DNA of 38,595 nt, taken from a virus. A model generated the notes under the pieces. That model was not told where the DNA came from. It searched no databases and saw nothing but the letters and a program-made list of their open reading frames with translations. The stretch spans positions 1 to 38,595 of the IMG/VR virus record IMGVR_UViG_3300048928_000623, one strand, 5' to 3'. Both the position numbers and the translations under genes were made by a program. Of this stretch, positions 8,235 through 34,839 are shown in pieces. The number at the start of each line of letters is the position of its first letter. Positions within the stretch are counted from its first letter, which is position 1.

Positions 8235-8570
8235 ATGAGTTTTGAGGATGAGCTGAGCGATGTGACCGATGAGGCCATCGCTTTTTTTGGCACCGATAAC
8301 GGCCAGCTGCTGATCCTCAAGTACGAGGGCGCGGACGTGCGGTATTTCGAGGAAGATCAGGAGACCAGTCTCGATCTGATCCTTGGCGGCATCGCCGATG
8401 TTACCGACAAGGTTGTCCGTTGCCGGCGAGACTCTTTCCCGCCTGGTTCGCCACAGGATATGGAGTCCGTCCTCATCTCCGCTCGTCGCTGGAAAATTCA
8501 CGCGATCAAAGGCTCGGCCGGAGATCCCGAGCTCCGCCTCGTTCTTCGAGATCCCAACCGCCGCAGCTGA
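8235..8570 (+). CDS. Putative head-tail connector protein (gpFII position)
   Basis: A 111-aa alpha/beta protein that starts MSFEDELSDVTDEAIAFFG and has a strand-rich centre (GQLLILKYEGADVRYF). It occupies the place of lambda FI/FII between capsid and gpZ. The sequence is not diagnostic. An upstream in-frame ATG at 8136 would add 33 residues with an unusual Trp/Phe-rich composition, so I prefer 8235. The stop overlaps the next ATG (TGATG). Confidence 0.55.
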   Translation: MSFEDELSDVTDEAIAFFGTDNGQLLILKYEGADVRYFEEDQETSLDLILGGIADVTDKVVRCRRDSFPPGSPQDMESVLISARRWKIHAIKGSAGDPELRLVLRDPNRRS

Positions 8571-9732: not shown

Positions 9733-10110
9733 ATGTCAGCTACTCTCATTGGCACCACCGGATCCTGGGGCATCACGTCCGACCAGACCGGCTTGTTACT
9801 CGAGTCGATCGACTTCGACTACAAGGACAAGGAAAAGGCCGTCCTCAACAAATCTGGAGAGACGATCGGCTATTCGTTCTACGATGAAATGGTGGAGACC
9901 TCGATTAAAGGTCTGGCCACGTCGACGTCGCCGTTCGCAGGAACTCTTGGCGCAAACCTCGCGATGTCGAATGCGATTCCAGACCATTTGCAGGGCACTG
10001 TCACGGGCGGTCAGAACCTCATTCGTTCCGTGAAGAAGAGTCTCGCGATCGAGGACTTTGTTCGGTTCGAGACGATGGCGCGGTATTGCCCGCTGATCAC
10101 CGGATCGTAG
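9733..10110 (+). CDS. Putative tail tube protein
   Basis: A 125-aa, Gly/Ser/Thr-rich, beta-type protein with a long polar strand (LLLESIDFDYKDKEKAVL). It contains NKSGETIGYSFYDEMVETSIKG split by turns, a composition like tail-tube subunits. It stands at the gpV position and has its own TTGACA element, consistent with a protein needed in high copy. It is shorter than lambda gpV (246 aa, including an Ig-like domain). Alternative: another tail structural protein. Confidence 0.45.
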   Translation: MSATLIGTTGSWGITSDQTGLLLESIDFDYKDKEKAVLNKSGETIGYSFYDEMVETSIKGLATSTSPFAGTLGANLAMSNAIPDHLQGTVTGGQNLIRSVKKSLAIEDFVRFETMARYCPLITGS

Positions 10111-10127
10111 GTCCGTTGACACGGATC
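10110..10127 (+). promoter_or_regulatory. TTGACA element in a 7-bp hairpin with one G-T pair
   Basis: GGTCCGT-TGAC-ACGGATC; the core (10116-10121) is exactly 16 nt before ATG 10138. Confidence 0.58.
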
Positions 10128-10137
10128 CCAGTTCGTT

Positions 10138-10566
10138 ATGATGATCACCGAACGCGGACAGGAGAGCAGCTTCGTCTCTGACGATGCTGGAACCACGAAC
10201 ACCCTGCTTGCTGCCGCGTTGTCGGCAGTTGGCATCCCCTTTCATCGCACCCGCGCATCCGCAATCGTCACTGGCGATGGGATCCGCGGGAATCACCGCA
10301 TCACGTGGTATTTCGAGGCGCGAAGCCTCTGCGGCAAGTACTCCACAAAAGAACTCATTGCCGCCTGGGATGATCGGGATTGGCACCAGCGCAATCCGGA
10401 GCATCCCTTCGCGTACATCAAGTGCGCCTCGCAGAATCACCAGCGCCTGATTGATCACCTCAAACAGGACACGCCCCTCGGGCTCGTCCGGAAGGGGGAC
10501 AAAGTCGCGCTCGTTTCCATGAACGCCTCCCAGCACGTCCAAGACGTCATTTTCTCAAAGCTATGA
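10138..10566 (+). CDS. Hypothetical tail-region protein
   Basis: A 142-aa alpha/beta protein, not recognised. It starts MMITERGQESSF and holds mixed strands and helices with HHIT-like and WYFEARSLCGKYS stretches. It lies between the putative tube gene and the tail chaperones, so it may be a tail assembly factor. It begins 16 nt after a TTGACA element and ends in an ATGA overlap with the next gene. Confidence 0.65.
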   Translation: MMITERGQESSFVSDDAGTTNTLLAAALSAVGIPFHRTRASAIVTGDGIRGNHRITWYFEARSLCGKYSTKELIAAWDDRDWHQRNPEHPFAYIKCASQNHQRLIDHLKQDTPLGLVRKGDKVALVSMNASQHVQDVIFSKL

Positions 10567-10790
10567 GTTCCAAGGCAACCACCACAACCACAACGCCGGA
10601 ACGTGTCGGCAACATCGAAATTGGCTCCGTAGTCCGACTTGAGGATGGCCGCATCGGTAAAGTTCTCGCGAAAGCGAAGAACACGACGGAGGACGCCGTA
10701 TATATCAAGGGCGTGCCAGGTCCTTTACCCGTGGCCGTTCTCGCGCTCGCCACTTCCGAGGAGGTCGCACAGGCGCCTATCGAAGAATGA
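10563..10790 (+). CDS. Small hypothetical protein, SH3-like
   Basis: A 75-aa protein. A Thr-rich leader is followed by a short beta-barrel-like segment (GSVVRLEDGRIGKVLAKAK) and an acidic tail. The strand-turn-strand pattern with EDGRIGKV resembles small SH3-like folds. It is joined by 4-nt ATGA overlaps to both neighbours, so it is expressed with them. Function unknown. Confidence 0.6.
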   Translation: MSSKATTTTTTPERVGNIEIGSVVRLEDGRIGKVLAKAKNTTEDAVYIKGVPGPLPVAVLALATSEEVAQAPIEE

Positions 10791-11239
10791 CGCCTGAAGA
10801 TCGTTCCAGACGTCTGGAAGACGCGCATCTCCTACCTCCACCCGTCGTGTGTGGGCTCGAACTTCGACCGCTGAGCCCAGCCAGTTTCGTGCTTTTGAAG
10901 CGGCTGAAGAATCCGCTGGTTATCGGCGGAATGGCCACCATCGAGAAGGATGGCGTAGCCACGGTGGACTTCACCGATCCGGAGAATCTCACGGCGATCC
11001 TTGAGTTCATCTACGTTCACTCGGCACCTCTGAACGAAGTGTTGGCGAACGCCCGCGACACTGACCTGATGGATTCGGCGGTATTGTACTTTGGTACAAC
11101 CCTGAAGCTTTCCGAAGTCGCCGAGTGCACGAATCACATCATCAGCACTCTCGATCTCTCGAGCGCGGCGATGGCTGAAGCGAAGTCCGCGAAAAAGTTG
11201 GAGGACCACGACCCAAACGGGCATGGCCCGCGTGGCTGA
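10787..11239 (+). CDS. Tail assembly chaperone, gpG-like (short form)
   Basis: A 150-aa protein just before the frameshifted extension and the tape measure, the standard place of lambda G. It has an alpha-helical core (NLTAILEFIYVHSAPLNEVL) and a charged, Lys-rich end where the slippery site lies. Tail chaperones coat the tape measure before tube assembly. The 5' end carries palindrome copy 3 at 10805-10818. Its normal stop is at 11237-11239. Confidence 0.68.
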   Translation: MTPEDRSRRLEDAHLLPPPVVCGLELRPLSPASFVLLKRLKNPLVIGGMATIEKDGVATVDFTDPENLTAILEFIYVHSAPLNEVLANARDTDLMDSAVLYFGTTLKLSEVAECTNHIISTLDLSSAAMAEAKSAKKLEDHDPNGHGPRG

Positions 11240-11523
11240 GCGCGGGCGTTTGGTTAATCGCAAGGGAAACAGGATGGAGCCAACACTACATCCGCTGGGA
11301 GCTCCAGTTAGCCGAGTTCTTCGCCTACCAGCACTGTCACCTCGTGGCCCTCGACCGGCCGTGTTTTTGGGTGTCAGGGGGCGAGGATCCGACAGCAGCG
11401 TTCGCCCGCATCAAAACGCAATGGACCGGCCTTCGATGGGGATTACCCGAAGAGGACGGAAGCCAGGGCGAGCAACAAACAGAGGCTCATCCAGAACAGA
11501 ACGACGACCCCGAGGCCGACTAG
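10787..11523 (+). CDS. Frameshifted tail chaperone, gpG-T-like fusion
   Basis: A -1 shift at 11191-11197 joins the first 137 codons of the short form to an open frame of 108 codons that ends at TAG 11521-11523, giving about 245 aa. The extension has no start codon of its own near the junction. It reads like a T domain: AWPAWLSAGVWLIARE, then WSQHYIRWELQLAEFFAYQH and a very acidic end (EQNDDPEAD). A -1 frameshift with a G-T fusion before the tape measure is the conserved rule in long-tailed phages. Confidence 0.72.
10805..10818. repeat. Dispersed 14-bp palindrome, copy 3 (perfect)
   Basis: TCCAGACGTCTGGA, extended to a 16-bp dyad by flanking T and A, in codons 7-11 of the tail chaperone. Confidence 0.75.
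11191..11197 (+). other. Programmed -1 frameshift site G AAA AAG
   Basis: In the zero frame the codons are GCG AAA AAG. The heptamer G AAA AAG is close to the classical A AAA AAG slip site. Reading on from 11197 in the -1 frame stays open to 11523. Confidence 0.6.
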
Positions 11524-11593
11524 CCACGCCTTGGCGAGCCCAAGGAAAAGGCGCGGCAAGGAATCTTTCACCTGCAGCTGAATTTCACCTTTC

Positions 11594-13321
11594 ATGATTA
11601 AGGCAGTTATAGACGGAGATGCGTCCGGACTCAATAGCGCGATCAACAGCGCTGTCTCTGGCCTCGCCAAGTTTTCCGGCCGTATAACGGCTGGTCTCGG
11701 TGACATGGTCAAAGGTGGAGTCGTGTTCGGCCTGGTCGAGCGTGGCATGGATGGGCTCATCAATCTCGCTCGTTCCGCTCCCGAGGGAATCAAGCATGCG
11801 TTCGACCTTGGCGGAGAACTCTCCGACCTGAACGCTCAGACGGGAATTCTCCAGGGGAACCTTCTCATTCTCCGCCGCGCCTTCGACGATGCCGGCGTCG
11901 GTGCCGATAAGGTTGGTCCGTCGGTCAACAAGATGCAGAAGCTTCTCGCCGGGGCGGCCGAGGGCGCATCCGAAGCGAACGCCACGCTGTACGGCCTCGG
12001 GATCTCGCTCGATGAAGTGGCCAAGCTGACGCCGGATCAGCAGTTTGAAGTTTTCCGGAAGGCCATCGCGTCGATCGAGGATCCCGCGTTGCGTGCAAAA
12101 TCGGCCATGGATGTCTTTGGGAAAAGTGGCGGGCAGATGCTCGCCCTGTTCTCGGACGATGGCGCGCTCGATGCCGCTGCCGAAACGTTGGGCAGCCAGG
12201 CAGAGGTACTCAATCGCCAAGCGGCGAACTTCGACAAGATTTCCGATTTGCTCGGTCACGCCGGAGACAAGATGCAGGGCTTCTGGGTAGGCCTCGCAGA
12301 CAAGTTCGCGCCGATGCTCCTGCCCATCCTCGAGAGATTGAACAAGCTCGACTTCACGGGGTGGGGACAACAGATCGGCAATGCGGTGCAGATCATTGCG
12401 CAGGCATTTTCTGACGGCCGTATTTCGGAGTTGCTGAGCCTCGCGCTGCGCGTGGGCTTTGGTGAAGGCCTCAATTATTTCACCGGCGCGATTTCCACGA
12501 TCGTTCGTATCTTCGGCGAGGAGCTGAAGACGGTATTCGGCGAAGGCTTCTGGGTCGGGGCACTTGCCTCGCTCGAGGGATTCGGCGCGAAAGTCGGACA
12601 GATCTTGCTCACGGCGTTTGCTGAGCCTATACGCAGCTTCCAAGCGGGGCTCCAATTCGCTGTCGAAAAGGTGATGGAGTATTTCGGGACCGCCATGGGT
12701 TCAAAGGTTTTGACGGTCCTCAAAACTTTGAGCCCCGTGCTTGGTATCGGCGACATGGCCCTGAAAGCGGCCGGCATTGATCTCCAGAATATGGGTTTCA
12801 AAGCCCGCTCTTATGATGACATCCGAGGAGAAACGAATCCTTCGCTGTTCGGTCGCGATGCAGAGAGCTTCGGTCAGCAGAGTGACGATGCGTTCCGCCG
12901 TGCAGGTGACGCGTTCAAACCAGTCATGGATGATTTGGGCAAGCGTGTCTTCGACGTCCTCAAGGACTTCAAGCCAGCGGACATCTCCGACACGGCCGAC
13001 GCGCAAGCTCAGCTCGGAACCTTGCTTACCAAGCTCCAGGCAGCTGTCGACCAAACTGTCGCGGCTGGTGATGCAAAGGCTCCCGGAAGCACCACGGCAC
13101 CAGATCTCTCGGACGCCAACGGCCTCGGAAAAGGCGGCCGCATCGTCGACAGCCTTGCGCGTGTAGGCGGCGGCGGTTCCGCAGTTGGCGCGGTCTCTCT
13201 TCAGCGAGAAGCCAATTCAATTCTGAAGCAGATTGCGAAAAGCACTGCTGAAGTTGCACGAAATGCCGCGAGCGGATTGGCCGGAAGCAGCTCGTCTTCG
13301 CAGGAAGGAGTCTACGCATAA
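11594..13321 (+). CDS. Tail tape measure protein
   Basis: A 575-aa protein after the chaperone pair. The N-terminus has typical tape-measure features: Ser/Gly/Ala-rich helices (SAINSAVSGLAKFSGRITAG) and the family signature around FDLGGELSDLNAQTG, followed by MDVFGKSGGQML. Hydrophobic helical stretches lie at about 265-400. The C-terminal part is low complexity. At about 0.15 nm per residue the tail would be roughly 85-90 nm, so a short siphovirus tail (inference). The 70-bp gap after the chaperone holds no gene on this strand. The stop overlaps the next ATG. Confidence 0.85.
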   Translation: MIKAVIDGDASGLNSAINSAVSGLAKFSGRITAGLGDMVKGGVVFGLVERGMDGLINLARSAPEGIKHAFDLGGELSDLNAQTGILQGNLLILRRAFDDAGVGADKVGPSVNKMQKLLAGAAEGASEANATLYGLGISLDEVAKLTPDQQFEVFRKAIASIEDPALRAKSAMDVFGKSGGQMLALFSDDGALDAAAETLGSQAEVLNRQAANFDKISDLLGHAGDKMQGFWVGLADKFAPMLLPILERLNKLDFTGWGQQIGNAVQIIAQAFSDGRISELLSLALRVGFGEGLNYFTGAISTIVRIFGEELKTVFGEGFWVGALASLEGFGAKVGQILLTAFAEPIRSFQAGLQFAVEKVMEYFGTAMGSKVLTVLKTLSPVLGIGDMALKAAGIDLQNMGFKARSYDDIRGETNPSLFGRDAESFGQQSDDAFRRAGDAFKPVMDDLGKRVFDVLKDFKPADISDTADAQAQLGTLLTKLQAAVDQTVAAGDAKAPGSTTAPDLSDANGLGKGGRIVDSLARVGGGGSAVGAVSLQREANSILKQIAKSTAEVARNAASGLAGSSSSSQEGVYA

Positions 13322-14049
13322 TGGCTATCGGGGCAGTCGAAGCTGGAAGCGGAGGAGCAAAGTTTGCTGGTGTCGGTTCCGGCCTGACTGAGCAGCCGGG
13401 CTGGAAGATCACAGTCACCCGCGACGGGATGACTACGATCACGACGCAGTTTGCTTGCCGTGCAGAGCTTCTCATTGATCTCCTTCCGCCTATCGGAGCG
13501 AAGCATAACCGCTTCAGCTTCGCCTCCCTTGATGAGATCACCGGCGTTCGTGAAGAGGGCGACCTTGCGAAAATTGACTGTGTTTATCGTGGCACACAGC
13601 CTGGCGTAGGGCAGGGGACGCAAGCCGCCACGTATCAGCTCATCGCCCAGACGAAAGAAGAGCCGATCGAAACGCACGAACGGTACAAGGATGTATCCCT
13701 CCAGGATCTGAAGAAGATCCGCTACTACATCGACAACGCTGAGGGAAATGCCGCACTTCCGACATTCTCAGATCCGAAGGCCACCGAGCTTCTGGAAAAA
13801 AAACTGCGGGGACAGGAGGTGTATCTCCAGCGCAATCTCGTCTGGCGCGAGACGATTACCTCGAGCGCGAGTATCGGCAGTATCGAAAATGTCGGAAAAA
13901 TCTCCGTTCCGGTAGGCGGAGCACCCGGCAACGGCACCGGCAATTGGCTGCTTTCAAGTAACGAGCAGGAGAAGCAAGGAAGCGCCTACCGCCGAGTGCG
14001 TGAGTGGATGGCGAGCGGCCACGAGGGCTGGGATACGGACATATACTGA
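13321..14049 (+). CDS. Hypothetical distal tail protein
   Basis: A 242-aa, mainly beta protein directly after the tape measure. It is preceded by a good ribosome binding site (GGAAGGAG), inside the end of the tape-measure gene. The sequence begins with a Gly-rich segment and has a conserved-looking centre (ERYKDVSLQDLKKIRYYID). The position corresponds to distal tail or baseplate hub genes (lambda M/L). I do not recognise the family. Confidence 0.65.
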   Translation: MAIGAVEAGSGGAKFAGVGSGLTEQPGWKITVTRDGMTTITTQFACRAELLIDLLPPIGAKHNRFSFASLDEITGVREEGDLAKIDCVYRGTQPGVGQGTQAATYQLIAQTKEEPIETHERYKDVSLQDLKKIRYYIDNAEGNAALPTFSDPKATELLEKKLRGQEVYLQRNLVWRETITSSASIGSIENVGKISVPVGGAPGNGTGNWLLSSNEQEKQGSAYRRVREWMASGHEGWDTDIY

Positions 14050-14696
14050 TGGCTGTTCGTATTCCTCGAGTAAGTCGCGGGGACAAGATCACCGCAGATC
14101 ACTTAAACCGGCTAGCCGACGCCATCCGCGAGAACACGGTTCTTTCCGCTCCCGGAGGCGTAAACCGCACTCCTCAGGGTGTGCACATTCGCGGTGCACG
14201 GAGAGGCGTGGGCAGCGCTGCGGAGGGCGATGTTGCTCCGTTTCACGTGTTCACGCGAACGAAGCCGGACAATCCCAACATTATCCAAGGCAAGGTCTAC
14301 TCACAATCGTCGCTGGTGAAGAGCATCAAATCCGACGACCGCATCACCATCACCGGTCTCGACGACGGCACGGACGCCGCCTGGTTCGACCTCATTGTGG
14401 AGGATCTCATCTGGCTCGAGGGCATCTATATCGACGGCGTTTTGGATTCCGTAGAGATCAACAACTCCGGCAGTGGCGACTCGTGGACGGACTGGCCTAA
14501 CCCCGTCACCTTCGCGCTCAACAAGCAATCACGCTTTCGCGAGCTCATCGCTTACTGCCACGAGGATCCGGATACCAATCTCCCGATCGTCCACCAGCGC
14601 ATCAGGACCGACCTGATTCTGCACTACTCGTGCGAGTACGGCGACTCCGCCCAGGTCCCTTTTCCCTATCACTCACCCTACATCGCCACCATATGA
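14049..14696 (+). CDS. Hypothetical tail protein
   Basis: A 215-aa protein with a short N-terminal helix (SRGDKITADHLNRLADAIREN), an arrangement common in phage and tail structural proteins of unknown role. Beta-rich sequence and an aromatic, Pro-rich C-terminus (FPYHSPY) follow. It starts at an ATG overlapping the previous stop and ends in an ATGA overlap. Confidence 0.62.
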   Translation: MAVRIPRVSRGDKITADHLNRLADAIRENTVLSAPGGVNRTPQGVHIRGARRGVGSAAEGDVAPFHVFTRTKPDNPNIIQGKVYSQSSLVKSIKSDDRITITGLDDGTDAAWFDLIVEDLIWLEGIYIDGVLDSVEINNSGSGDSWTDWPNPVTFALNKQSRFRELIAYCHEDPDTNLPIVHQRIRTDLILHYSCEYGDSAQVPFPYHSPYIATI

Positions 14697-15307
14697 CCAC
14701 CGACGAAAAACACAGCTTCTCCCTCTTCACCACGGCCGTCGCCACGCTCATCCAGGCCCGCACTCCGCGGGACGGTCGGGGGCCGATGCAATCCGTAACT
14801 CTCGACCTGCTCGAGGAGGATGTCCTCGCCTTCCACATCGAGAGCGGCCTGGCGAATGCCTGGCCCGAATCCCGAAAGAAAGCCCGGGAGCAAATTCGCG
14901 CTCACAGGCAGGCGATTGTCGAGCGGCACGCCAAACAACAGGAGCAGAAACAGGTGCCATCTCCTCAACCACCGGCATCTCCTCAGGCTTCCGGACGCCT
15001 CGCTCGCCAGCATGTCCTTTGGGCAAACATCCACAATCGCCCGCTTCGCTTCGATGGCGATATTGAGTCAGAGAGGATCTTCCTCTATGAGACCGTCGCG
15101 GCCGAGCTGCGCGCGATCGGAGGTTGCAAGGCGGAGCTCGGCGCATGCGTCGACCATTACCTCGAGTTCCTGCGCACCAATCCGCCGGCATTCACCGATC
15201 GGGACGTCTACTTCGCTTGGACCGTGGATCTCCACAACGCGGTAAACACGCGTCTGGGCAAGCCCACGCTGTCTCTCGAAATCGCACGCCGGGCCTGGGC
15301 TTTGTAG
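14693..15307 (+). CDS. Hypothetical helical tail-region protein
   Basis: A 204-aa protein with two helical parts joined by a Gln/Pro-rich linker (about 86-106, KQQEQKQVPSPQPPASPQ). The C-terminal half (LWANIHNRPLRFDGDIES and a helical segment with DVYFAWTVDLHN) is compact. No family recognised. Its stop (TAG) abuts the ATG of the cysteine-rich gene that follows, suggesting joint expression. Confidence 0.62.
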   Translation: MTTDEKHSFSLFTTAVATLIQARTPRDGRGPMQSVTLDLLEEDVLAFHIESGLANAWPESRKKAREQIRAHRQAIVERHAKQQEQKQVPSPQPPASPQASGRLARQHVLWANIHNRPLRFDGDIESERIFLYETVAAELRAIGGCKAELGACVDHYLEFLRTNPPAFTDRDVYFAWTVDLHNAVNTRLGKPTLSLEIARRAWAL

Positions 15308-17227
15308 ATGTGGCCGTTCGACAGCGTTAAATCTTGCGTCCCTCCGACGCTCGAGCCGCTGTGTGAGTGCCCGTCGGTCCTTCGAGCTTATCCGTGGGTT
15401 ATGGACGGCGGCCTCTGCACGGCCGCGCCTTCGGGTGCAGTCAAGACCGCGCTGGACACCTACAAGGAGTCTCTCGAGGGCGCCGTTGACGAATTCAAGG
15501 ACTGCGCTGCGGCAAATGGCACCGGAGAGTGTGAGGAAGTCCAGATCGAGGCGCAATACACAGCCGCTTATGAGGCGCTCAAGTCCATCCGCTCCGCCTT
15601 GCGCGGCGACTTCCAACTCACTTGGTTCTGGAACGCCTGCACGTCCCTCCGCGCGCGTATCTGCACGGAAAAGCGACAGCGTTGCGTCGACGAATGCCGT
15701 GGCGACGAGGCCTGCCTCACGGAATGCTCCTCCGATGATTTGGCCTGCCAGGACGATGCATCTCAGTGTGGCGCCGAGGCCCCGGACACCAACCTCTGCG
15801 CGTCCTCAAGCTCATCCTATATTACGGCGATCACCAACTGTGAGCAGGATAGGGATTGCATACTCGGGGTGCAGCAGACCTATGTGCCGATCTTTGCGGC
15901 GTGCTCGGGAAATACCAACGGCGAGATTGCTAGTTGCTATTCATCCGAATACGGGGCTGAGCTTGCTGGGAAATGTGAGGGCGACCTGGTCGACGAGCTT
16001 GAACGGCCCTCCAAAGAACGGACTGAATGTGAAGAAGACAATTCCGCTGCAGAATCGGCTTGCAGTCTCTCCTACAACCAGTGCTTCGATGCTTGCAATG
16101 ATGCGTACGAAGACTGCGATGGGCCCGACTGCGCAGACGTTCACGAAGACTGCATCGAAAGTTGCGGACGCAGCTATGGATCGTGCGTCAGCGCGAGCCT
16201 GACCGCCTATTGGTCTTGCCTCGACGGCATCGTACCGCCGGACATCGCCACTCTCGCTGCGACATTCAACTCCTGTAAATCAGCTAACATTGAAGCAATT
16301 CTCACATGTGAAGCCGAGGGGTGTGGGGATGCGATCGCCAGCGCCAGGCTTAATTGCTACACTGCTTACCGAGTCTCGGCGCTCCTGGAATCCTCCTACG
16401 GCGATAAAGTCTGCGTCTATCAGAATGGCGGAGTCGAGTACGAGTGCGACATCGAGCAGCCGCGCATCGTGGCCGCCCGGAAACGCGCGGCGCTCCAGAC
16501 GTACAACTCGTGCCTCGGGGGAATCGACTGCGCAACGGAAAATCGTGAGACGCTCCGACTCCCATCCAGCCGGTGCCATTGCGACCGCGATTGCTACAGC
16601 CAGTATGTCGCAGACTACTACCTCTGCCATGGCCGCCCATCGTGTCAGGCCGCCGCTCTCGATGGCTTCATCTCTTGCCGATGGAATTGTTGTGAGGGTA
16701 ATCTCGTCGATAGCGACCCGATCACCACGTGTTTCCGGCAGTGCAACTCCGACGCGCGGGATCAAGACGATTTCACCGGCCGCGACTGCCTCTTTGTCTG
16801 TGATGACACACACCTAGACGGCGTTATCGCCTGCATCACCGCGTACGAAACCGGAAGAATCGCGTGCGAGAGTAGCCACGAGAACTGTGTACGCACTTTG
16901 CTCCTCCAAGCGTGGGCGGCCTTTCCTGATCCTTTCGAGGGCGATGATTGTGAGACTCCATACGAAACCTGCCTCGGTTCTCTCTCGAGTTGTGGCAGCC
17001 AGCAGGACGCCTATGCCGCGTGCAAAACCGCCTGCGAGACTACGGAAGATTTTCCTAACACCTTCGATATGGACACCTGCAAACAGGCCTGCCGAGCGGT
17101 TGATCTCACGAAGGTTGGAGGCTGCTCGCCTTGCAATTCGATGGACAGCGCATTTGTCAGCCCCAATGAGCCGCTGAATCTCTACACCGACTATTCGAGT
17201 ATCCCTTGGTACACTGTGATTCGTTGA
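15308..17227 (+). CDS. Large cysteine-rich tail-region protein
   Basis: A 639-aa protein with 62 cysteines by my count (about one residue in ten). They are spread from residue 10 to near 600, in repeats such as CxxxC and CxxxCxxxxxxC set in Tyr/Asp-rich helical segments (for example CFDACNDAYEDC). There is no signal peptide or membrane span. The composition is rich in Asp/Glu and the C-terminal 30 residues lack cysteines. The gene sits inside the tail operon between unknown tail genes and a fibre gene. A disulfide-stabilised spike or fibre, or a metal-binding protein, are both possible; no known phage family comes to mind. Confidence 0.75.
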   Translation: MWPFDSVKSCVPPTLEPLCECPSVLRAYPWVMDGGLCTAAPSGAVKTALDTYKESLEGAVDEFKDCAAANGTGECEEVQIEAQYTAAYEALKSIRSALRGDFQLTWFWNACTSLRARICTEKRQRCVDECRGDEACLTECSSDDLACQDDASQCGAEAPDTNLCASSSSSYITAITNCEQDRDCILGVQQTYVPIFAACSGNTNGEIASCYSSEYGAELAGKCEGDLVDELERPSKERTECEEDNSAAESACSLSYNQCFDACNDAYEDCDGPDCADVHEDCIESCGRSYGSCVSASLTAYWSCLDGIVPPDIATLAATFNSCKSANIEAILTCEAEGCGDAIASARLNCYTAYRVSALLESSYGDKVCVYQNGGVEYECDIEQPRIVAARKRAALQTYNSCLGGIDCATENRETLRLPSSRCHCDRDCYSQYVADYYLCHGRPSCQAAALDGFISCRWNCCEGNLVDSDPITTCFRQCNSDARDQDDFTGRDCLFVCDDTHLDGVIACITAYETGRIACESSHENCVRTLLLQAWAAFPDPFEGDDCETPYETCLGSLSSCGSQQDAYAACKTACETTEDFPNTFDMDTCKQACRAVDLTKVGGCSPCNSMDSAFVSPNEPLNLYTDYSSIPWYTVIR

Positions 17228-20873: not shown

Positions 20874-21076
20874 CGGAGGCCTGCACATATTTCGAGATCC
20901 CGAATGAGATCGTCGATTCGATCACTCGGGCCGAGGCGGGTACCAATCCGCCTCCTGAGGATCCGCGTCCTTTTCTCATTCGGCTCCTCAGCTCCATTCG
21001 CGTGATGCTGAAGCCGAAGCTGAAGTCCGGACGTCTGGAAATCGAGGGAGAAGTCACGGGAGGCACGGATTTCTGA
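20840..21076 (+). CDS. Small hypothetical protein before the endolysin
   Basis: A 78-aa protein overlapping the previous gene by 34 nt. It contains FEIPNEIVDSITRAEAG, a Pro-rich turn and a basic helix. The palindrome at 21026-21039 is in its last codons (SGRLE). Its stop overlaps the endolysin ATG (TGATG). No recognised domain. Confidence 0.5.
   Translation: MFTPGCRIPKVTEACTYFEIPNEIVDSITRAEAGTNPPPEDPRPFLIRLLSSIRVMLKPKLKSGRLEIEGEVTGGTDF
21026..21039. repeat. Dispersed 14-bp palindrome, copy 4 (variant, inverted)
   Basis: TCCGGACGTCTGGA, the reverse complement of the variant seen at 847 and 34167. Confidence 0.7.
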
Positions 21077-21789
21077 TGGCTCTCGACTCCACCATTGTGC
21101 GCCGGATTCAATCCCGCGTCGGCGTTTCCCAGGACGGCATTCTCGGGCCAATCACCCTCACGGCGATCGATCTCGCCCTGACGCCGGCGGCGTCCTCGGA
21201 AGTTCCCAAATCGGGAACCGCCGCGAATCTCGATATCGGCGACCGCATCGTCGCGGTGGCCATTCGTTACCTCAATCTGGTCGAGACCCAGAGCAATGCT
21301 CAGTGGGATGATCCGAAGACCCCGGGTGTCGATGCTCGTGCATTGCAGATTCGGGCGGCGCTCATCGCCTCGGGTCACACCGACGGCGCACCGTATTGCG
21401 CGGCGTTCGTCGAAGCCATCTGGCGTCTCGCCTATGCAGAGGCGGGTGCGAGAGCGACCACGATCGCGAGGCTGACGAGTCTTCTTTGCCCCAGCGTCAT
21501 GACTTCATTCATGAACTGGAAGCGCGAGGGCCTCATCACGCAAACGCCAGTGAAGGGCGCGATTTTTTTCATGCAGAAGGGCGAGTCCTGGACCGGCCAT
21601 GCGGGCATTGTCCGCGCCGTAAAGGACGGATACATCGAGACGATCGAGGGAAATACCTCCCCCATGGCGGGGACACCCGAGGCGGATCGAAACGGCGACG
21701 GCATCTACGCCAAGCAGCGCCGCCTGCAGTTCACCATGAACACATCCGGTCTATGGCTGCGAGGCTTCCTGAATCCGATCACCCCGTGA
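21076..21789 (+). CDS. Endolysin, CHAP/NlpC-P60-type peptidase
   Basis: A 237-aa protein. Residues 8-35 resemble a single peptidoglycan-binding repeat (VGVSQDGILGPITLTAID). A cysteine peptidase domain follows: Cys108 in APYCAAFVEAIW as nucleophile, His175 in WTGHAGIV as base, and Asn193 in EGNTS as third residue. The spacing matches CHAP-type amidases or endopeptidases that cleave cell-wall peptides. There is no signal peptide, so release depends on a holin. The linker between the two domains carries a GTTCCC palindrome. Confidence 0.82.
   Translation: MALDSTIVRRIQSRVGVSQDGILGPITLTAIDLALTPAASSEVPKSGTAANLDIGDRIVAVAIRYLNLVETQSNAQWDDPKTPGVDARALQIRAALIASGHTDGAPYCAAFVEAIWRLAYAEAGARATTIARLTSLLCPSVMTSFMNWKREGLITQTPVKGAIFFMQKGESWTGHAGIVRAVKDGYIETIEGNTSPMAGTPEADRNGDGIYAKQRRLQFTMNTSGLWLRGFLNPITP
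21202..21218. repeat. GTTCCC-N5-GGGAAC palindrome, endolysin copy
   Basis: GTTCCCAAATCGGGAAC, identical to the 17-mer in terL at 2874. It encodes the VPKSGT linker between the wall-binding and peptidase domains. Confidence 0.65.
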
Positions 21790-24458: not shown

Positions 24459-24688
24459 GCGGGTCTCACGCGAGCGCAGTCGAAACCTCCGGACTTGCCT
24501 TGGACTTTAACGACCCACTGCCCGTGGCCGAGTTCCCAAGGCAAAGAGGTGAGCGTTGAAGCCAACTCCGAGCCATCGTCATTTCTGACGATGACCGGCT
24601 GGCCGATCTCGCGAAGCTTCTCGGCTGCCTCCTTTCCTTTGGCGATTTCCAATCGCATCCGCTGGCGCAAGCTGAAGGGTCGCCTCAT
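24455..24688 (-). CDS. Small basic hypothetical protein
   Basis: A 77-aa protein. A basic N-terminal helix (MRRPFSLRQRMRLEIAKGK) is followed by a small beta domain (PVIVRNDDGSELASTLTSLP). It starts inside the end of parB (ATGA) and is coupled to the next gene. The basic helix suggests nucleic-acid contact. A ParB-associated role is possible by position only. Confidence 0.5.
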   Translation of the reverse strand: MRRPFSLRQRMRLEIAKGKEAAEKLREIGQPVIVRNDDGSELASTLTSLPWELGHGQWVVKVQGKSGGFDCARVRPA

Positions 24689-33495: not shown

Positions 33496-34839
33496 GTGGA
33501 AGAGAAAGCCGAGAAAACCGAGCTGAAGCCCGTGAAGGTGCGGGGCATCGAAATCCCGATGTACCGATACAAGGATGGCCGCACAGCTTTCGCTGACACG
33601 TTCGGCGGAGAACGCAAGATGCGAGTCTTCAAGGATGCGGGGAAGGCCTACGACGAAGCCGAGGCGCTCGCCATCCGTTTGCTCAATGGAGAGGCACTTC
33701 GTAGCGAATTCAAGGCGACGGATCAGGCGATTTACAAACACGCGCTGCAATTGGTGGAGAAGGTGGGAATTCCACTCACCGCGGCGCTTGAGGAATACGT
33801 TGCAGCCAAGGAGCTGTGCAAGGGTCGACCATTGCTCGACGTCGTGCGAGCTGGTGCGACCCGTGCTAATCTCGAGCCGAAACTCGTGGCGGATGTCGTT
33901 CAAGAATTTCTCGCGGTCAAGACGGCCGATGAGATCGATGTCCACTACCACAAACAGATCACGCAGCTGCTCGGGCAGTTGGTGAAGCGATACCCCGATC
34001 TCACGATCCAGGAGATCACCGCGAAGCAGATCAAAGAACACTACATCGCGATCGCCGCGCCTCGCGCCAACGGCAAGAAGGGTGCAGGATACAAGCGCCG
34101 GAAAGCGGCGAGGGGAGCCATCGTATCTCTCTTCCGCTACGCGAGAGACATCGGCGGATATTTAATTCCAGACGTCCGGACGGAAGCGGAGAAGGTCGAC
34201 GTGCCAGGCAAGGAAATCAACACGATCGCAACACATACTCCAGACGAGCTGAGGTTCTGGCTCCGAGTGGTGCGCCTCGAGTACCTCCCGTGGATGGCCA
34301 TTACGAACTTCTCCGGCGTGCGCACGGAAGAGGTTTGCCCGAAACCCGACTCCCGCAAAGATCGCCTCCGCTGGGAGGACATCAATTTCACCAAGGATGT
34401 CATCATCATTCGGCCAGAGGTGTCGAAGACCGGCGTCAAACGGATCATTCCGCTCCTTCCCAATTTGAAGGCGTGGCTCATGCCGTGGGTCGGCCGCTCA
34501 GGGCCCGTGATGCCGTCGCCGATGAATATTCGCTACGAAACCAAGCTGATGAACAAGGCGAGCGCCAAGCTCGATATCGATCACGCGAAGGGGACGCGGA
34601 TTCACCCGCACCCGGGCTTGCGTTGGAAACAGAATGCGAATCGCCACAGCTACGGATCCCATCGAAATGCAATCATCCAAAATTCCGCGCAGCTTGCCGA
34701 GGAGATGGGAAACTCGGTGGGCGTGATCAAACGCGACTACGAAGATCCGAAGGAGCGCGAGGTGGCAGACGCATTTTTCGGCATCATGCCGACCAACGTA
34801 GGCGACAACGTGATCCAAGTCATGTTCGCGATGGGGTAG
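33496..34839 (+). CDS. int: Tyrosine-family integrase
   Basis: A 447-aa tyrosine recombinase. Catalytic residues visible: Arg276 in SGVRTEE, Lys311 in VSKTGVKR, Arg383-His384 in ANRHSYGSH (with Asn in place of the first His of HxxR) and Tyr415 in IKRDYEDP. An arm/core-binding region lies before residue 250. It starts at GTG 33496, 2 nt after the previous stop. No att site core was recognised nearby. A variant copy of the dispersed 14-bp palindrome lies at 34167-34180. Confidence 0.88.
   Translation: MEEKAEKTELKPVKVRGIEIPMYRYKDGRTAFADTFGGERKMRVFKDAGKAYDEAEALAIRLLNGEALRSEFKATDQAIYKHALQLVEKVGIPLTAALEEYVAAKELCKGRPLLDVVRAGATRANLEPKLVADVVQEFLAVKTADEIDVHYHKQITQLLGQLVKRYPDLTIQEITAKQIKEHYIAIAAPRANGKKGAGYKRRKAARGAIVSLFRYARDIGGYLIPDVRTEAEKVDVPGKEINTIATHTPDELRFWLRVVRLEYLPWMAITNFSGVRTEEVCPKPDSRKDRLRWEDINFTKDVIIIRPEVSKTGVKRIIPLLPNLKAWLMPWVGRSGPVMPSPMNIRYETKLMNKASAKLDIDHAKGTRIHPHPGLRWKQNANRHSYGSHRNAIIQNSAQLAEEMGNSVGVIKRDYEDPKEREVADAFFGIMPTNVGDNVIQVMFAMG
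34167..34180. repeat. Dispersed 14-bp palindrome, copy 7 (variant)
   Basis: TCCAGACGTCCGGA, same variant and orientation as copy 1, within the integrase gene. Confidence 0.7.

Follow-up and report, generated by a model that had tools for sequence, protein, structure and literature searches.

Genomic Context of the Cys-Rich Gene

The window (the whole stretch of viral DNA that was analyzed, 38,595 nucleotides) carries genes of a tailed phage, which encode a lambda-type portal, a gpA-type terminase, an S49 protease, a tape measure protein and a CHAP endolysin. Two adjoining genes of its tail module are considered here, a Cys-rich gene encoding the protein P0001 and, directly upstream of it, an Erv1/ALR-fold gene (Table 1). 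The initial annotation had placed the Cys-rich gene in the virion region, and this setting was borne out by the tape measure gene located before it and the endolysin gene after it. The Erv-like gene that adjoins it was overlooked in that annotation and is the main result of the present analysis.

Comparison of the tail protein that follows the tape measure with its counterparts in two prophages, L053 and L054, gave E-values of 5e-14 and 4e-7 for the two comparisons, and the protein encoded by the next gene showed no match to the gene at the same place in L053. Among named phages, the terminase was best covered by that of Verrucomicrobia phage P8625, and the portal matched those of Wolbachia WO, Akkermansia, P8625, Faecalibacterium, and Nitratiruptor phages. 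Since all of these terminase and portal matches had just 19–28% identity, the assignment of the host to the Verrucomicrobiota is a guess. Elsewhere in the window, the minus strand between positions 24685 and 30984 encodes a ParB-like protein, a phage replication protein O, a weakly matching HerA-like ATPase and a SEC-C motif protein, and a weak integrase match is located on the plus strand at 33496–34839. The minus-strand genes and the integrase match possibly point to temperate or plasmid-like maintenance.

Table 1. Features of the tail module and of P0001, with positions in the window.
Feature	Position	Strand	Description
Tail length tape measure protein	11594–13321	+	PHROG phrog_9483, 1.5e-18
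Tail protein after tape measure	13321–14049	+	Related to the corresponding genes of prophages L053 and L054
Tail-module protein directly upstream of the Erv-like gene	14049–14696	+	By position
Erv1/ALR-fold protein	14693–15307	+	204 aa from ATG 14693; directly upstream of the P0001 gene
Erv-like domain	14990–15304	+	W131-x3-H135, C166-x6-C173, H202-N203-x-V205-N206, LGKP (residue numbers of P0002, the frame from 14630)
Cys-rich protein P0001	15308–17227	+	Orphan of 639 aa with 62 Cys, predicted to be a chain of disulfide-stapled alpha-hairpins
P0001 residues 111–154, candidate hairpin	15638–15769	+	Pairs 130/136, 126/140, 119/147, 111/154
P0001 residues 241–304	16028–16219	+	Nested pairs 241/304, 252/293, 259/286, 263/282, 270/275
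P0001 residues 293–380, candidate ladder	16184–16447	+	Pairs 334/339, 323/350, 304/369, 293/380
P0001 residues 423–462, candidate ladder	16574–16693	+	Pairs 440/446, 429/457, 425/461, 423/462
P0001 residues 562–606, candidate ladder	16991–17125	+	Pairs 576/591, 572/595, 562/606
Endolysin with CHAP domain	21076–21789

Cysteine Content and Geometry of P0001

The frame of P0001 is open, and the Cys count given in the initial annotation was confirmed, corresponding to 9.7% of the residues. This content is unique within the window, where the other 51 listed ORFs reach at most 5.6% Cys and the majority have 0–3%; the third-position GC of the gene (0.68) resembles that of neighboring genes. In keeping with the reported absence of a signal peptide, the N-terminus (MWPFDSVKSC...) has no hydrophobic stretch when judged by eye.

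Comparison with shuffled sequences revealed that the CxxxC repeats described earlier are part of a more specific arrangement. Cys pairs at i+4 were indeed in excess (10 vs. 5.9 expected, p = 0.057), as were those at i+7 (10 vs. 5.9, p = 0.054), and the dominant spacing was i+11, with 18 pairs compared to 5.8 expected, a number reached in 0 of 2000 shuffles. Pairs at i+1, i+2, and i+3 (CC, CxC, and CxxC) were depleted, with 1, 2, and 1 occurrences vs. about 6 each. The distances between Cys up to 25 residues apart had a period of 3.6–3.7 residues (z = 4.9). When a period of 3.65 was applied, P0001 gave z = 5.1 and nine other Cys-rich partner proteins, used as controls, gave values from -2.0 to 2.3, suggesting that the Cys of P0001 are located on helix faces and that this trait is special to this protein.

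The Cys of P0001 are also paired as mirror images. Five pairs are mirrored about residue 272.5, each summing to exactly 545, and seven mirror centers with at least three consecutive rungs were detected, some of which overlap and thus do not represent seven separate hairpins. The ladders at residues 241–304 and 293–380, which share Cys, cannot both be complete. The longest ladder, of seven rungs within one residue, was never equaled when Cys were placed at random 5000 times, and was equaled in 0.08% of 5000 gap-order shuffles, while the number of ladders was matched in 0.08 and 0.16% of controls (ladder p = 0.0008–0.0016, gap-order shuffles). A looser statistic based on all same-sum Cys quartets was weaker (p = 0.057 and 0.023).

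The structure prediction that had been suggested as a check was informative for one part of the protein. In the single-sequence AF2 model, residues ~232–308 form a helical hairpin with a block pLDDT of up to 94, which coincides with the five-rung ladder, whereas the remaining model is poor and the overall pLDDT is 42.6. Residues 241–304 are thus the sole confidently predicted part. The geometry of P0001 fits antiparallel helices with nested Cys pairs, one such hairpin being modeled at a pLDDT of ~90.

The readings first offered for P0001 included a metal sponge and a disulfide-locked helical spike. Cys that hold zinc, iron or another metal, in a metallothionein-like sponge or in structural Zn sites and either in the tail or in the cytoplasm, would be compatible with so high a Cys content, since 9.7% is in keeping with a thiolate metal protein. 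Such metal binding is nevertheless very unlikely, considering the depletion of adjacent-Cys motifs of the metallothionein and Zn/Fe-S types, the helical and mirror-paired Cys spacing, and the presence of an Erv-fold neighbor, which would not be expected for a metal sponge. A metallothionein was rejected because its dense CC, CxC, and CxxC motifs are depleted in P0001 when compared to shuffles. From the second reading, the disulfide-locked helical part is favored by the period, the mirror pairs, the hairpin and the upstream Erv-fold gene, and a disulfide-linked helical protein appears to be the best of the readings in the initial annotation.

Search for Relatives of P0001

No relative of P0001 was found in viral contigs, in phage records, among PDB sequences or in 20 records reached via the first loci. 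There was no match to PHROG, and the one row obtained with Pfam had an E-value of 0.85, far below its cut-off. Likewise, Pfam, PHROG, and PDB sequences gave no match to a known twin-CX3C/CX9C family, and comparison by blastp and phmmer with the 101 neighboring Cys-rich proteins described below gave nothing significant. The search of 387 genomes belonging to the same phylum as an Opitutae MAG yielded just two weak local matches (E = 0.0016 and 0.007); one had internal stops, and both were rejected as chance matches between Cys-rich stretches. A DNA pattern of the exact eight-Cys hairpin of P0001, run on the viral contigs, revealed no P0001-like frame among the matches listed: of 128 places in 80 loci (L176–L255), 93 had internal stops and the other 35 were Cys-run or repeat frames unlike P0001. 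The homologue search thus left P0001 as an orphan, and its predicted fold is consequently based on the Cys geometry and on the single-sequence model described above. One of the loci with the eight-Cys pattern, on an IMG/VR contig (L178, 7993–8118, minus strand), belongs to a frame that encodes 2429 residues, 269 of them Cys (11%), including repeats such as CCGNQCC.

The Upstream Gene Encodes a Predicted Erv-Fold Protein

The likely start of the Erv-like gene overlaps the stop of the preceding gene as ATGA, and its TAG stop (15305–15307) abuts the ATG of the P0001 gene. The gene matched Pfam PF04777 at 35.9 bits (cut-off 27.6) and was retrieved at 4.1e-21 by a profile built from the other 39 phage Ervs described below, while a profile from all 40 matched human ALR in PDB at 6.7e-18. 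Direct searches showed no relatives of the window Erv gene in viral contigs, and five Erv queries had none among 50,697 phage records. The AF2 model of the protein had a pLDDT of 90. In a Foldseek comparison of this model with PDB, the best 24 rows were all Erv/ALR proteins, yet none had an E-value below 0.001. VIA-align placed the model closest to the viral sulfhydryl oxidase 3gwl (Z = 14.1, rmsd 1.7 over 95 residues), followed by 14 Erv/ALR entries with Z of 12.5–13.3; baculovirus P33 and QSOX, which are also sulfhydryl oxidases, had Z of 6.5 or less, and the top unrelated row had 5.5. The gene product is therefore predicted by modeling to have the Erv helical-bundle fold.

Alignment of the 40 phage Ervs, window included, revealed that W, H, C, C, W, H, V, N, and LGKP are invariant in 40 of 40 among the matches listed; the W, H, V, and N columns are presumably FAD contacts. 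The window Erv keeps the putative FAD-site residues (W-x3-H and HN-x-VN) and both catalytic Cys columns. Its active-site pair has CX6C spacing, unlike all of the other 39 representatives, among which, for the matches listed, 26 have CxC and 13 have CxxC. The window protein, having CX6C in place of the FAD-proximal CxxC of Erv/ALR oxidases, was thus filed as Erv-fold and not as a proven Erv oxidase. With this spacing, the window copy may have slowed down, changed or lost its activity, and the active site appears to be the weak link of the mechanism proposed below.

A dead Erv fold would act as a non-enzymatic structural or chaperone-like tail protein that assists assembly of the Cys-rich protein, as could be suggested by the CX6C site and by the presence of just two Cys in the entire 225-aa frame. 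Such a role is unlikely in view of the FAD-site W, H, and HN.VN residues and both catalytic Cys columns, which are kept in 40 of 40 representatives among the matches listed. Moreover, compact viral Ervs that lack shuttle Cys exist (PMC3509050). An enzymatically active Erv-type oxidase is the reading preferred here.

Recurrence of Erv-Like and Cys-Rich Genes in Other Phages

PF04777 was found in 2 of 387 genomes of the phylum of the Opitutae MAG, at loci L053 and L054, where both Erv copies follow tape-measure-like genes in tail operons. The tape measure of L054 was called by PHROG, and that of L053, which has no PHROG match, was judged by size and place. L054, a prophage from the Verrucomicrobiota side, encodes on the minus strand (10085–11800) a partner of 571 aa whose C-terminal Cys repeats are EGF/TIL-like by eye. 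There was no PF04777 match in 20 records of terminase relatives, and none in 392 genomes from the phylum to which a Planctomycetaceae MAG belongs, in which the controls gave no match either. Among the terminase relatives (46 loci, L002–L004 and L006–L048), 4 of 303 genes of at least 200 aa exceeded the Cys cut-off given below, none being P0001-like.

An Erv pattern that made no use of Cys content (W-x4-H-x2-VN-x2-LGKP) was run on IMG/VR and retrieved at least 119 stretches, which are not a random sample; a narrower pattern retrieved 21, one of which was new (L175). The window copies (L001, L005), shorter copies (L051, L052), a duplicate prophage (L062) and two 46-residue frames that were chance pattern matches (L057, L070) were left out before counting, and 118 loci were kept. 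Apart from these two, the frames inspected look like Erv domains, that of L130 being cut at its 5' end. The non-redundant set was restricted to domains with less than 65% identity, those under 85 residues being excluded. Among the matches listed, all 40 representatives (window included) matched PF04777 at E ≤ 0.01, and two matched a PHROG (E = 0.004 and 0.0086), in both cases one without description. Where tested, the phage nature of the contigs was supported by PHROG tape measures on L061, L072, and L077, the last of which also had a portal, and no PHROG match was obtained for the proteins tested from L076, L092, L139, and L145.

Genes were called as greedy longest ORFs, not by a gene finder, and were considered Cys-rich when Cys made up 4% or more of the product and numbered 8 or more. 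Among the matches listed, a Cys-rich gene was located directly upstream of the Erv gene, on the same strand, in 98 of the 111 loci having an upstream gene, and within two genes upstream in 101 of them, as compared to 0 of 83 directly downstream and 50 of 744 more distant genes of at least 100 aa. In the window, this order is reversed, the Erv gene being first, while 98 other loci have the Cys-rich gene first. In the non-redundant set, again among the matches listed, 28 of 38 Ervs had a Cys-rich gene directly upstream (29 within two genes), and by the cut-off 10 had none directly upstream. Among the nine that had none within two genes, L102 and L053 still carry a Cys cluster and L101 and L060 are near the cut-off; clear misses include L107, L139, and L162.

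That P0001 and the Erv-like gene are unconnected neighbors brought together by chance could be proposed from the lack of a P0001 relative and from a gene order that differs from other phages. The frequency of Cys-rich genes directly upstream of the non-redundant Ervs, when compared to that among other genes (28/38 vs. 8/256 among the matches listed), and the fact that the search that found these loci ignored Cys content make this so improbable that chance neighborhood was rejected.

The 102 Cys-rich proteins, P0001 included, formed 12 groups unlinked by blastp among the matches listed, with 78, 7, 4, 3, and 3 members and seven singletons, and many of these partners start with a CCC-type cluster. 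The recurrence of Erv with unrelated partners points to Cys content as the trait that the Erv-like gene accompanies. Judged from sequence, P0001 and its Erv are one variant of a two-gene module that consists of a Cys-rich tail-module protein and a phage Erv-like protein and recurs in many uncultured tailed phages.

Phage Erv-like genes without a Cys-rich gene were observed at L139, L152, and L167, which possibly represent a second context for phage Ervs; at L139 and L152 the neighbor is a 422-aa protein, ATP-grasp-like by eye. On the IMG/VR contig L162, which has no Cys-rich neighbor, the Erv-like domain ends a 470-aa protein (minus strand, frame containing 8240–8536), the N-terminal part of which, by eye, we take to resemble a GT29 sialyltransferase.

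Proposed Function of the Gene Pair and Comparison with Known Systems

Conditions in the bacterial cytoplasm are commonly regarded as too reducing for disulfides to be stable. Because P0001 would be made in this compartment, the phage would supply its own FAD-dependent Erv-type sulfhydryl oxidase. We consider it probable that P0001 is a disulfide-stapled hairpin tail protein that is oxidized in the cytoplasm by the Erv-type oxidase encoded upstream, and that the two form a recurrent phage module. This explanation builds on features established by computation, namely the Cys content and geometry of P0001, the Erv fold and FAD-site residues of its neighbor, and the adjacency of the genes, both here and in other phages. 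P0001 would be translated straight after the Erv-like protein and would be built of antiparallel alpha-helical hairpins, in which paired Cys on facing helices would reduce the Erv Cys pair, and FAD would relay the electrons from there to oxygen. Held together by nested disulfides, the hairpins would form a rigid, protease-resistant element of the tail, and P0001 is probably a tail-tip protein. From the sequences, we infer that the window Erv-like enzyme is active, that P0001 is its substrate, that disulfides form in P0001 and that the product is present in the virion.

According to PMC2946281, yeast Erv1p permits disulfides in the cytoplasm of E. coli with the reducing pathways intact, and thus no change of the host need be assumed. 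On balance, it seems rather likely that tailed phages have a natural cytoplasmic disulfide system, in which an Erv-type oxidase is dedicated to the Cys-rich tail-tip protein encoded with it. The substrates would have been recruited from several unrelated families and would be disulfide-laddered hairpins here, and the system would be a bacterial-virus counterpart of the mitochondrial Erv1 relay. If this is true, phages make tail parts with covalent locks inside the cytoplasm of their hosts, a function is assigned to many unannotated tail genes, small new catalysts become available for the production of disulfide proteins in bacteria, and the origin of eukaryotic and NCLDV Ervs is reopened.

No report of an Erv/Cys-rich pair was found in the open-access literature searched on phage sulfhydryl or thiol oxidases and Cys-rich phage tail proteins; a mention of "Evr1" for phage Lacusarx proved to be a journal DOI in a reference list and not a protein. 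PMC3509050 describes Erv catalysts as a universal feature of eukaryotes that is conserved also in the large DNA viruses infecting them, and the same source covers compact viral Ervs that lack a shuttle pair. The Ervs of NCLDV and baculoviruses (ASFV pB119L, mimivirus R596, baculovirus Ac92/P33) have the same fold as the window Erv and, like it, are virus-encoded and compact, keep the FAD-site residues and have no shuttle pair. Unlike them, the phage Ervs occur in tailed phages, in the tail operon and beside a presumed substrate, and their active site is mostly CxC, or CX6C in the window. CyDisCo-type production with Erv1p is another case of an Erv making disulfides in the bacterial cytoplasm (PMC2946281), but it is engineered with a eukaryotic enzyme, whereas the window would hold a natural phage gene.

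The mitochondrial Mia40-Erv1 relay acts on substrates that are twin-CX3C/CX9C helical hairpins. Unlike in this relay, no Mia40 homologue was noticed and the window Erv has no shuttle Cys, and P0001 differs from the relay substrates in repeating many predicted hairpins and in having no sequence match to known families. As in the relay, an Erv fold is nevertheless combined here with putative helical hairpins, the Cys of which are at CX3C/CX6C spacing, and the phage Erv of L054 has CPC as its Cys pair, a sequence given in the literature as the active-site motif of Mia40.
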